From Microcaldota archaeon (GTDB lineage Archaea; Micrarchaeota; Micrarchaeia; Micrarchaeales; CABMGC01): a DNA stretch of 38,041 nt. The stretch spans positions 1-38,041 of the forward strand of contig DAHVUT010000003.1 in the NCBI GenBank assembly GCA_027328425.1, written 5' to 3'. A model generated the notes under the pieces. It was not told the origin of the DNA. It saw only the letters and a program-made list of their open reading frames with translations, and ran no database searches. Below are positions 14,192-33,183 of this stretch, piece after piece. How positions within the stretch are numbered: the first letter of the stretch is position 1; the number at the start of each line of letters is the position of its first letter. The translations under genes and the position numbers were made by a program.

Positions 14192-14680
14192 TTACCCGCC
14201 GTATTGGAAGGAGAGTGTATTGTACTCTGCGGCATCGTACACCCTGATGCCGTCTTCACATGGAAGCGCAAACTCGGTTATGCCAACATCCAGAGCCATC
14301 TTGCTGCATATCGTGCAGTATGGATCGCCAGACAGTCCTTCCTGGCGACCTCCACCGTCCAGCCGCGTGACATAAAGCCTGGAACCGGGCAGTTTGCCCG
14401 GATTGCTTTTTAGGGCGTCCATTATGGCCCTCTGTTCGGCGTGCATGCAGCACGTCTTGTCCGTGACCCGCTTATTATAGGAATCTTTCAGAACAGAGCA
14501 TCGTCTCTGATCCTCCCTTTTGGCCGGAGGGGAATTGAACCCGCTCCCAATCACTCTGCCTTCGCTTACTATTACGCTCCCGTAGTGGCGCTGCCGGCAA
14601 GTGGCACTAGAAGCGGCATCCGCAGCTTCCTGAAAATGCAGAATCGCCTCCTTCTCCTCGTCACCGGAAAGATATCGCAT
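14192..14680 (-). CDS. cytidine/dCMP deaminase family protein
   Basis: This zinc deaminase of about 162 residues has the family motif HAEQ (H-A-E, zinc ligand and proton shuttle, about residues 80-82) preceded by CCM, and the PYCTIC pair of cysteines (about 121-125). Its length and the extra cysteines resemble dCMP deaminase rather than small cytidine deaminases, suggesting a role in pyrimidine nucleotide metabolism. The substrate cannot be fixed from sequence. Starts at 14692 (GTG), 14689 and 14680 (ATG) are possible. GTGATGG ends 5 nt before the last, so I use it. The gene is close to the XPF nuclease stop (14682). Confidence 0.82.
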   Translation of the reverse strand: MRYLSGDEEKEAILHFQEAADAASSATCRQRHYGSVIVSEGRVIGSGFNSPPAKREDQRRCSVLKDSYNKRVTDKTCCMHAEQRAIMDALKSNPGKLPGSRLYVTRLDGGGRQEGLSGDPYCTICSKMALDVGITEFALPCEDGIRVYDAAEYNTLSFQYGG

Positions 14681-14681
14681 A

Positions 14682-15329
14682 TCAACCATCACTTTCGATG
14701 AACTCTGCGTTGAGCACCTCGTATATCTTCTCTGCCTTCTTCTCGCCTATCTTGTTAACTTCCATTAGCTCGCCGGGCTCAGCCGAAACAACTCCTTTTA
14801 TCGTCCTGAAGTGGCTTATCAGCGATTTTGCTATTTTTGGACCTATGCCAGGGATGGAGCTCAGTATGAGCACCTGCCACTGCGCGTCAGTGAACGCCCT
14901 CTTGGCTCCCTGTATGCGGGGCTCGCGCTTCTCCCGTTGTTCCCTCTCTGCCAGCCTCGCGAGTATGCTGACTGTATCTGCTGCGCTCTTCGATCTTATC
15001 ACTTGCACGTTGTAGTCCTGGTATATGCTTATTATAGCCCCAAGGGTCACGTTGGGATTCATCATCGACTCGTTCTCGTCGCCCTCTATGAGCAGCAATG
15101 GTTTGGTGAACGCGCGGCCAAGCCTGTCCAGCTGGTCGAAGATGCGCGAGTTTGTTATCGAACTATCGAAGTCGCGCACTGTCTTGCGCTCGACGCACAT
15201 CCTGTCGGAAAGCACGTAGTCGCCAACAGGCAACTGCGCAAACCTGAGTATTATGCCAGACCCCGAAAGCCCCTCTATTATATCGAGGTTCCGTTCCCGC
15301 TTGTCTACTATTATGCTTGCGTCCCCCAT
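14682..15329 (-). CDS. XPF/ERCC4-type structure-specific nuclease
   Basis: This 215-residue protein is the nuclease half of the archaeal XPF/Hef family, which cuts branched DNA at flaps and stalled forks. The catalytic core is complete: GDYVLS (residues 36-41) and ERKTVRDF (47-54), with an upstream D-x-R-E-R acid cluster at residues 9-13. Two helix-hairpin-helix motifs follow (SSIPGIGPKIAKSL near 155-168 and VNKIGEKKAEKI near 192-203). There is no helicase domain, as in crenarchaeal XPF, which works with PCNA. It is divergent from the RIO1 kinase gene with a 40-nt shared upstream region. Confidence 0.92.
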   Translation of the reverse strand: MGDASIIVDKRERNLDIIEGLSGSGIILRFAQLPVGDYVLSDRMCVERKTVRDFDSSITNSRIFDQLDRLGRAFTKPLLLIEGDENESMMNPNVTLGAIISIYQDYNVQVIRSKSAADTVSILARLAEREQREKREPRIQGAKRAFTDAQWQVLILSSIPGIGPKIAKSLISHFRTIKGVVSAEPGELMEVNKIGEKKAEKIYEVLNAEFIESDG

Positions 15330-17004: not shown

Positions 17005-17267
17005 GCAGCAGGAAGGCGGGAAGCTAGGGGTTTCCCTTGCCGCAAATCCCCTTCAGGCGGGCCGCATGCCTGCAGAGTCGCATGCACATGCGCACGACCT
17101 ACACCGAAGCGTCGATGTCCTGCCTACAGTGGCGGTATTATATACGAACCGGGCCAGGCCGGAAGGAGCAACCCTAAATATATGGCACTGTGCTCTGTAG
17201 ATACGGGGCGGAGCGGAGGCGCAGACAACCGTGCACATTTGCGCGCGGCAAAGAGGGCTCCTGCTGC
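17005..17267 (+). ncRNA. ffs: signal recognition particle RNA (7S/SRP RNA)
   Basis: The RNA carries the SRP54-binding helix 8 signature GCCAGGCCGGAAGGAGCAAC (17153-17172), with the universally conserved asymmetric loop. The ends pair over 9 bp (17005-17013 with 17259-17267), which is helix 1 of archaeal SRP RNA. The 5' region GCUAGGGGUUU with its partner AAAUCCCCU (about 17024-17052) looks like the Alu domain. CTGCAGAG (17070-17077) pairs with CTCTGTAG (17193-17200) as part of helix 5. At about 263 nt it is a little short for archaea (around 300). It guides ribosomes making membrane proteins to the membrane together with SRP54 and SRP19. The ends are inferred from pairing. Confidence 0.87.
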
Positions 17268-31222: not shown

Positions 31223-31837
31223 CTACTTTATCTTTATCTCGACCTTCGCCTCGAAGTCGGAGATGCTCGGCTTGAACTCATCGTCTGACTTTATGGCACC
31301 CTTCTCCTTCAGGTATTCCCTGGCGAGGAGCCAATAGACGAGTGCGAGCGAACGCCTGCTCTTATTGTTGCAGGGTATAACCAAGTCTACATACTTTATC
31401 CAGTTGTCAGTGTCGCAGAGTGCTATTATGGGTACGTTTGTCTTGCTTGCCTCCCTTACCGCCTGTCTCTCGTTCCTTGTGTCGCTCACCAGTATTAGCT
31501 CGGGTTCTGTGAAGTCCTTCCTATTCGGATTCGTGAATGTGCCGGGCATTACTCTGCCTTCAACCAGGCGCATGCCGGTAAGCTCCGCAAACTTCTTAGC
31601 CGGAGTTATTGCGTATATCCTTGAAGCAGTGACCACCACCCCTTTGTTGTCGTATGCCGCTAGCACCTTTGCCGCAGCCCTTATCCTCTCGTTGATCACG
31701 TCGAGCTTAAGCAGGTACAGTCCGTCGCCGCGCCTCAAGCTTATGAATCTCTTCATGCCTGGCATGCGTATCATCGTGCCAGACTGCACGTGCGAGTACG
31801 AGTACTCAGTCTCTTCAATGAGCATTTCATTGGCCAT
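31223..31837 (-). CDS. rps2: 30S ribosomal protein S2
   Basis: This 204-residue ribosomal protein shows the archaeal S2 pattern: HVQSGTMIRMPGMKRFISLRRGDGLYLLKLDVINERI, TGMRLVEGRVMPGTFTNP, PELILVSDTRNERQAVREAS, VPIIALCDTDNWIKYVDLVIPCNNKSRRSLALVYWLLAREYL. Length is normal. It follows tRNA-Pro by 22 nt in the rpoD-L13-S9-rpoN-S2 block. Confidence 0.96.
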   Translation of the reverse strand: MANEMLIEETEYSYSHVQSGTMIRMPGMKRFISLRRGDGLYLLKLDVINERIRAAAKVLAAYDNKGVVVTASRIYAITPAKKFAELTGMRLVEGRVMPGTFTNPNRKDFTEPELILVSDTRNERQAVREASKTNVPIIALCDTDNWIKYVDLVIPCNNKSRRSLALVYWLLAREYLKEKGAIKSDDEFKPSISDFEAKVEIKIK

Positions 31838-31859: not shown

Positions 31860-31948
31860 CGGGGCCGCCGAGATTTCCAGTTTTCACTTTTGAACTCGGG
31901 TCTTGTGCGCCCTAGGCACAAAGCCTAACCAAGCTAGCCGACAGCCCC
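31860..31948 (-). tRNA. tRNA-Pro(AGG) with a T-loop intron
   Basis: The minus strand gives a cloverleaf once a 15-nt insert is removed. The acceptor stem is GGGGCUG/CGGCCCC with G73 and one U-G pair. The D-arm is GGCU/GGCU with loop AGCUUGGUUA, and the anticodon stem UGUGC/GCACA holds loop CUAGGGC, anticodon AGG. The T-stem is CCGAG/CUCGG. The T-loop would be 22 nt, and removing the intron leaves UUCAAAU. Acceptor and anticodon point to proline; A34 is odd for archaea. The gene lies between rpoN and S2 inside a protein operon. Confidence 0.82.
31874..31888 (-). other. 15-nt bulge-helix-bulge intron (T-loop, 59/60)
   Basis: On the minus strand UUCA pairs with UGGA (one U-G) as a 4-bp central helix, flanked by 3-nt bulges AAA and AAU. 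The inner part is a GU/AC stem closed by a GAAA loop, and the outer part is the T-stem CCGAG/CUCGG. This is a canonical archaeal splicing-endonuclease substrate; cleavage two nucleotides into each bulge yields a 15-nt intron and a normal T-loop. Confidence 0.75.
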
Positions 31949-31992: not shown

Positions 31993-32193
31993 TCAGCTCC
32001 TTCCGTAGCTGATTATCTCGTCTATTAGGTCTACGTGGCTTATAAGCATGCGCCTGCAGCAGTATCTCTTTACGCCAAGATCGTCGAGCACCTTGCCAGG
32101 ATCCTCGCCATTCTGGTTCACTCTCTTGTTGAACTCCTCCCACTTGTCCGCCACTACCTGCCCGCAGGAGAAACAACGCACTGGTATCATCAT
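31993..32193 (-). CDS. rpoN: DNA-directed RNA polymerase subunit N
   Basis: RpoN (Rpb10 homologue) is a small zinc-binding subunit of archaeal RNA polymerase. The 66-residue product has [15 protein letters not shown] (first two zinc ligands) and the diagnostic [28 protein letters not shown] overlaps the S9 stop codon and lies 5 nt before the ATG at 32193, so translation is coupled. Its gene order with S9 and S2 is the archaeal standard. Confidence 0.97.
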
Positions 32194-32197
32194 AGCA

Positions 32198-32740
32198 TCA
32201 CCTGTATGACTTCTGGAACCTTGCCCTCGCCTTCGGTCCCTTGTACTTCTTTGGTTCCACCTGCCTTACGTCGTCAACAAGCAGCATCCTGTCATATTCC
32301 AGATAGAGTTTCTTTACCGAATCGCTGCCCGAAGCGGAGGCTATCGCCTTGGCCAGGGCGCTCCTGGCCGCCTGCGCCTGCCCGCTCGCGCCGCCGCCGT
32401 TGACTATTATACGTATGTTTGCCTTGTTCGCTATCGCCCTGGTGGTGTCCGATATGTTGACGGGCTCCAGTATGAAGTCCCTAACTTCCTTTGGCTTCAC
32501 AGTGCCTACATCGAAGCCGTTGATCGTTATCGCCGCGTTGGTGTCCGTCTGCACCAGTCTCGCCCTCGCTATCGCCATCTTCCTTCTTGCCTTCTCTATC
32601 ACAAGCTTCTTCTTCTGGATCCTTCTCTTGGGCGCCGCCTTCCTGCCTTCCACCTTCACCTCCTGCTGCGTGCCCTTGACTATCCCTGCAAGCTCCTTAT
32701 TCAGGTTCTCGAGCGCCTTATCAACTTTTTCATCGGCCAT
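32198..32740 (-). CDS. rps9: 30S ribosomal protein S9 with N-terminal extension
   Basis: The C-terminal 130 residues are a normal archaeal S9: [90 protein letters not shown]. Residues 1-50 are extra: a charged, Lys/Glu-rich helix ([19 protein letters not shown]) and a Lys-rich segment. Typical archaeal S9 is about 130-140 residues. Starts at 32749 (TTG), 32746 and 32740 (ATG) are possible; the 32746 ATG overlaps the L13 stop. I favour 32740. Confidence 0.93.
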
Positions 32741-32745
32741 AAACA

Positions 32746-33183
32746 TCAACTAAGCATATATCCCAACCTTTCGCACAGCTCCTTGACTGTTATAGTGCCC
32801 TCATAAACGTCGAGCCTGCCTTTCGAGCGCTCCTCCATCTTTGCGGCACCTATGCCCTCAGGAACGCCCACATACACCCTTAGCCTCTTGAAAGCGTCCC
32901 TGCCGCGTGCCTTGCCGTAGGGCAGCATGCCCCGCACAGTGCGCTTCACGAGCATGTCAGGCCTCCTCGACCAATATGGCGAATGGTCAGGGTTCGCCTT
33001 GTCCTTCCACTCCACCTTCTGCTTGTACTCTGCGACTATGTCGTCTGCGTGACCGCTTATCGCAGCTTTCTCTGCGTTGACGAGCACCACACTTGAGCCG
33101 TTGAGGAGCAGCTTCGCCGCCCTGCTGGCTATGCGCCCGAGTATCTGGGAGTCGCAGTCAATTACTTGCTCGTTTGTCTGCAT
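32746..33183 (-). CDS. rpl13: 50S ribosomal protein L13
   Basis: This 145-residue ribosomal protein shows the archaeal L13 (L13a) pattern: VIDCDSQILGRIASRAAKLLLNG, VVLVNAEKAAISG, HSPYWSRRPDMLVKRTVRGMLPYGKARGRDAFKRLRVYVGVPEG. Its stop overlaps the first ATG of S9 (TGATG). It follows tRNA-Leu by 54 nt. Confidence 0.96.
   Translation of the reverse strand: MQTNEQVIDCDSQILGRIASRAAKLLLNGSSVVLVNAEKAAISGHADDIVAEYKQKVEWKDKANPDHSPYWSRRPDMLVKRTVRGMLPYGKARGRDAFKRLRVYVGVPEGIGAAKMEERSKGRLDVYEGTITVKELCERLGYMLS

Follow-up and report, generated by a model that had tools for sequence, protein, structure and literature searches.

Transfer RNAs that carry adenosine at position 34 (A34) are regarded as foreign to Archaea. 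In the literature all ANN anticodons are given as missing from this domain (PMC8007984), A34 as rarely or never allowed there (PMC8879553) and A34 tRNA genes as absent from it (PMC11066159); among the open-access papers searched, none describes a tRNA of this kind from an archaeon. Unmodified AGG tRNA in E. coli reads CCU and CCC in a ratio of 56:44, with no detectable inosine (PMC11066159). Introns at positions 59/60, 53/54, 56/57 and others are known in archaea, in the Thermoproteales (PMC4090602), which agrees with the remark in an earlier sequence-only reading of the present locus that non-canonical T-loop introns exist in some archaea. Relaxed bulge-helix-bulge (BHB) introns at various tRNA positions are cut by the epsilon2 type of the splicing endonuclease EndA (PMC6379350, PMC4033280), and Y160 and K161 have been named as the ASL residues of the ARMAN-2 enzyme (PMC12397907).

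Here we describe a tRNA-Pro gene in a stretch of 38,041 nucleotides (the window), which is contig C12 of a Micrarchaeota MAG (the home genome, G000; 542 kb, 72% complete); all genomes compared were MAGs. The precursor gene occupies 31860..31948 on the minus strand, with G1 at 31948, the discriminator G73 at 31860 and no encoded CCA, and the sequence folds on paper into a complete cloverleaf. Its 5' part, read on the minus strand from 31948, is GGGGCUG UC GGCU AGCUUGGUUA GGCU U UGUGC CUAGGGC GCACA AGAC, and its 3' part, ending at 31860, is CCGAG UUCAAAAGUGAAAACUGGAAAU CUCGG CGGCCCC G. The acceptor stem has 7 bp, including one G-U, and the anticodon and T stems are each a full 5 bp. The anticodon AGG (31911..31913, minus strand, A34 at 31913) lies in the 7-nt loop CUAGGGC on the 5-bp stem UGUGC/GCACA, and the features of tRNA-Pro identity (G35 and G36, G37, the whole cloverleaf and synteny with a GGG tRNA-Pro) are all present. 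Another reading of the anticodon loop was dropped: the 7-nt loop with its 5-bp stem is the sole fit, and ARAGORN gives AGG in an intronless orthologue. The sequence-only reading had assigned the gene to tRNA-Pro(AGG); the anticodon stands, but how unusual A34 is had not been flagged. Given the stated absence of such genes in Archaea, the AGG anticodon is the most unusual feature of this tRNA-Pro.

The gene had also been predicted to be easily missed by tRNA finders, and neither ARAGORN nor Rfam at its gathering threshold reports it. Tiny introns in the T arm are the reason why gene finders miss this tRNA-Pro and hence its anticodon. A match to the gene was found in 56 of 59 relatives. The tRNA-Pro(UGG) of the home genome (L002) is intronless and has the same T arm. 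No second AGG tRNA-Pro gene occurs in the home genome or in its sister G002, and so the intronless duplicate that would have spoken against the earlier interpretation did not turn up. Elsewhere in the window, 17007-17265 on the plus strand matches an Rfam SRP RNA model (Bacterial large SRP, 66.4 bits), in an archaeal genome.

The surroundings of the gene are conserved. A gene for ribosomal protein uS2 (31223..31837, minus strand) starts 22 nt after the tRNA and is the same neighbour in the family of the home genome (f1) and in the other, sister family of the same order (f2). Upstream, also on the minus strand, lie an ORF named from its sequence as rpoN (Rpb10-like; 31993..32190) and a uS9 ORF (32198..32749) in conserved synteny. 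The GGG genes of f2 at this locus have uS2 downstream and uS9 upstream in 33/33 cases; among the f1 locus entries that show uS2, uS9 lies upstream in 83/98, the other 15 having no room upstream. Because they share this uS9-uS2 locus, the AGG genes of f1 and the GGG genes of f2 are one orthologous gene.

The T arm (31868..31899, minus strand) comprises the stem strands CCGAG (31899-31895) and CUCGG (31872-31868) and, between positions 59 and 60, the predicted 15-nt BHB intron AGUGAAAACUGGAAA (31874..31888), identified from the sequence, its homologues and the intronless orthologue L295. In the central helix, UUCA of the exon (positions 54-57; 31891..31894) faces UGGA of the intron (31876..31879), which is UGAA in G002. 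The bulge at the 5' splice site is AAA (31888..31890), with a predicted cut between AA and A, and that at the 3' splice site is AAU (31873..31875), with a predicted cut between AA and U; the corresponding AAN and ANT bulges occur in 82/82 cases each. The inner stem is 2 bp (GU/AC) with a GAAA loop, compared with 0-6 bp in relatives. Thus each element of the 22-nt T-loop with an exact BHB, as originally claimed, can be read in the window. Joining the exons in silico yields UUCAAAU, a canonical T-loop. RNAfold returned no cloverleaf for the whole minus-strand gene or for the spliced sequence, a common outcome when tRNA sequences are folded without their modifications; for the isolated T arm, the minimum free energy structure was the T-stem with a 3-bp AGU/ACU hairpin and not the 4-bp central helix. 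Such folding does not by itself favour the 4-bp central helix, and for a helix so short it decides neither way.

We collected 94 distinct tRNA-Pro genes from the same order, 90 of which are AGG or GGG. An insert at 59/60 is present in 82 of these 90 and measures 11-30 nt; lengths of 11-13 nt are common, so the suggestion that 15 nt is near the lower size limit does not hold. In 81 of the 82 distinct 59/60 introns, a 4-bp partner of UUCA stands exactly 3 nt before the 3' strand of the T-stem, a match that a random 4-mer would make about once in 64 with G-U allowed. The BHB goes beyond chance because these 81 keep the helix partner although other parts of the intron vary in length and sequence. 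The inner stems, of 0-6 bp, are free in sequence, AGCAG/CUGCU and GGCAG/CUGCC occurring within one genus. The 59/60 insert is missing from L210 (GGG, f2), from L295 (AGG, f1) and from genes that have an insert at 53/54 alone. L295 shares its anticodon arm with the window gene and has a plain UUCAAAU loop, and ARAGORN calls it tRNA-Pro(agg); the predicted exon join therefore occurs in nature, and the expectation that removal of 15 nt gives the standard loop is matched exactly. The predicted exon T-loop is likewise found exactly in L210.

A second insert, at 53/54, is present in 29/90 genes (11-35 nt), with a central helix of the CCCG/CGGG type in 28/29; six genes carry it without the 59/60 insert. 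Its carriers include L044, L048, L051, L053-L055, L058 and L188-L198, and at this position the BHB and the T-stem must be in competition. Mapped on a uS2 tree, the insert at 53/54 calls for about 16 changes, against about 6 for the one at 59/60. This repeated gain and loss of tiny T-arm introns at one locus should be useful for studying the co-evolution of EndA and introns. Further tRNA genes with introns or extra length were seen in G002 and in the home genome (L017, L019, L025, L026, L028), among them Tyr, Met, Ser, Ile, Arg, Ala and others, which fits a tRNA set rich in introns.

The sequence-only reading had proposed to look for the type of splicing endonuclease in the genome. A PF01974 match was found in 56/59 relatives, in ORFs that are mostly 380-430 aa long and in many cases match the domain twice. 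Residues 7-385 of the 385-aa G002 protein align to residues 9-387 of ARMAN-2 EndA (4fz2; E = 2.3e-124), with the catalytic residues Y236/H251/K282 and the ASL residues Y160 and K161 identical. It is thus a single-chain, three-unit protein that aligns over its full length and has the Y/H/K triad. In the home genome this ORF lies at C18:8400-9557; judged by sequence, it encodes a full-length orthologue of the ARMAN-2 epsilon2 EndA. Conserved position and central helix, precise presence or absence among orthologues and the EndA gene together support the original claim of a BHB intron in the T-loop of a tRNA-Pro. With its splicing predicted in this way, the window intron is a further case of an already known kind.

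The distribution of A34 follows the two families. Order-wide pattern scans found the AGG form in 71/79 f1 genomes and 0/85 f2 genomes, and the GGG form in 64/85 f2 genomes and 1/79 f1 genomes. A second pattern added AGG in G162, bringing f1 to 72/79 and leaving seven f1 genomes with no AGG match. Sequencing error as the source of A34 was dropped, the feature being common to 72 separate genomes. The uS2 tree shows a single anticodon change (SH-aLRT 87), and we take A34 in f1 to be one G34-to-A34 change from an ancestral GGG. Base 38 changed along with it, U giving way to A or C, and base 32 differs in part; the change at base 38 may serve to tune decoding. With AGG the loop bases are U32-A38 (52) or C32-C38 (11), and with GGG they are U32-U38 (20) or A32-U38 (11). 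The f1 MAG G026, which has AGG, also shows a GGG tRNA-Pro near 400-472 of L283, at another locus on a 3.7-kb contig (C84); the longest conserved protein of that contig is closest to f1 (64% to G002), and the GGG gene may be a genuine extra gene or belong to a mis-binned contig. A looser pattern run over the phylum (301 genomes) brought up a further tRNA-Pro(AGG) gene, which has no intron and differs in the tRNA body, in G151 (L286:610-684) and G213 (L287:607-681), both of genus g83 in family f12. Neither uS2 nor uS9 adjoins it within the 1.3 kb fetched, and it is probably an independent A34. A match in G144 was rejected because its sequence is not that of a tRNA.

In the single-contig genome G002, a custom scan of the whole contig recovered only AGG, CGG and UGG tRNAs for proline, and no hidden GGG tRNA-Pro was found when introns were allowed both in the T arm and at 37/38. 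ARAGORN gives G34 in those other C/U-ending boxes that it recovers. One part of an A34-to-I34 system, an encoded A34 in place of G34 in a four-codon box, is therefore present. CCC makes up 30% of the proline codons of G002, and its share of CCC+CCU is 72% in conserved genes versus 59%, so that CCC is not depleted in conserved genes. We saw no clear CCC avoidance specific to f1; C/(C+T) for proline is lowest or nearly lowest in both f1 and f2.

Taken together, the data very probably describe a functional archaeal tRNA-Pro gene giving a spliced tRNA with A34; its splicing, modification state and decoding are what we infer. That the gene might instead be a decayed pseudogene with a random insertion in its T-loop is suggested by the 22-nt loop and by the silence of ARAGORN and Rfam, but we consider this scarcely credible: every stem is intact, the gene is conserved in the family and at a single syntenic locus, a BHB stands at the same place in 81/82 genes and G002 has no functional replacement. 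Almost as improbable is a mature tRNA that keeps the 15 nt and so has an enlarged T-loop. Splicing of tRNA-Pro(AGG) is deduced from genes, which leaves some room for such a molecule; against it, the insert ranges from 11 to 30 nt among relatives and is lacking in the orthologues L210 and L295, and the second insert at 53/54 comes and goes some 16 times on the tree. An enlarged T-loop would, moreover, disrupt the contacts between D-loop and T-loop.

Matches to PF00383 and PF14437 are patchy in the two families alike. Neither was matched in several f1 genomes that are 90% complete or better, and deaminase-fold proteins are absent from G001 (97% complete), G012, G019, G024, G027, G028, G030 and G033. 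Four deaminase-fold proteins were scanned against the NCBIfam TadA model and scored at most 29.9 bits, so that none passes the cut-off of 150 bits. A TadA/ADAT deaminase is thus not found in all A34 carriers, the fold being patchy and the scanned proteins falling below the TadA cut-off. Within the window itself, 14192-14692 (minus strand) encodes a zinc deaminase-fold protein (PF00383); it weakly matches anti-phage dCTP deaminase and ComEB and is not a TadA. As no TadA-like deaminase common to the family came to light, A34 probably remains unmodified in decoding, although we would put the chance that it stays so at about even. The main alternative, which we regard as somewhat unlikely, is that an archaeal enzyme not yet recognised deaminates A34 to inosine, making IGG the working anticodon. 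Elsewhere A34 normally occurs with a deaminase, Archaea make m1I57 in tRNA, some f1 genomes do have deaminase-fold proteins and one in G002 matches TadA weakly, at 26.6 bits against the cut-off of 150. The same proteins, however, are missing from the eight genomes named above, and none of those scanned reaches the TadA cut-off; in E. coli, furthermore, unmodified AGG is enough to read both CCU and CCC (PMC11066159). Alternatively, tRNA-Pro(AGG) might mainly read CCU and leave CCC to tRNA-Pro(UGG) through unrestricted wobble at U34. The UGG gene exists and superwobble in four-codon boxes is known elsewhere (PMC8879553), but this is unlikely given that CCC is plentiful and, in G002, enriched in conserved genes, and that a CGG tRNA has been retained, which suggests that U34 is restricted.

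Our preferred explanation is as follows. The tRNA-Pro(AGG) would probably be transcribed together with the uS9-rpoN-uS2 ribosomal operon. The exon sequence UUCA of the T-loop would pair with UGGA in the 3' part of the intron to form a BHB atop the T-stem, the epsilon2-type EndA would cut both bulges and a ligase would join the exons to give UUCAAAU. The mature AGG tRNA-Pro would have taken over from the ancestral GGG through a point change, G34-to-A34, within this family of Micrarchaeota and would be the f1 tRNA for both CCU and CCC. Its A34 most likely works unmodified, since in the proline box an A34 without modification reads codons ending in U about as well as those ending in C. It is an evenly balanced proposition that a whole archaeal family reads CCU/CCC with a natural unmodified-A34 tRNA-Pro, by one origin, with an apparently separate one in g83, against the no-A34 rule. 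With tRNA-Pro(AGG) present throughout an archaeal clade and no TadA recognisable in its genomes, the A34 question becomes testable in nature: the strong CCN box can be served by unmodified A34, or else Archaea possess an unknown A34 deaminase.

The eukaryotic tRNA-Pro(AGG/IGG), served by ADAT2/3, and some bacterial A34 tRNAs likewise have A34 in place of G34 in a four-codon box, whereas the tRNA body here is archaeal, no ADAT/TadA was found and only proline is affected. Engineered A34 proline tRNAs, an M. jannaschii tRNA with AGG in E. coli and a Salmonella mutant (PMC11066159), show that AGG reads CCU and CCC alike without inosine; those are engineered or mutant, while the f1 tRNA-Pro(AGG) is natural and clade-wide and is known from its genes. 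The ARMAN-2 epsilon2 EndA (PDB 4fz2, 9w2k; PMC12397907, PMC6379350) cuts relaxed BHB introns, and its full-length orthologue here (385 aa in G002), known as a sequence, keeps the catalytic triad and the ASL residues. With the non-canonical introns of the Thermoproteales (PMC4090602) the present ones share insertion positions, the BHB motif and the occurrence of multiple introns per gene; they differ in host lineage and in the tRNA that carries them, and in being very short, with inner stems of 0-6 bp, throughout a Micrarchaeota order.
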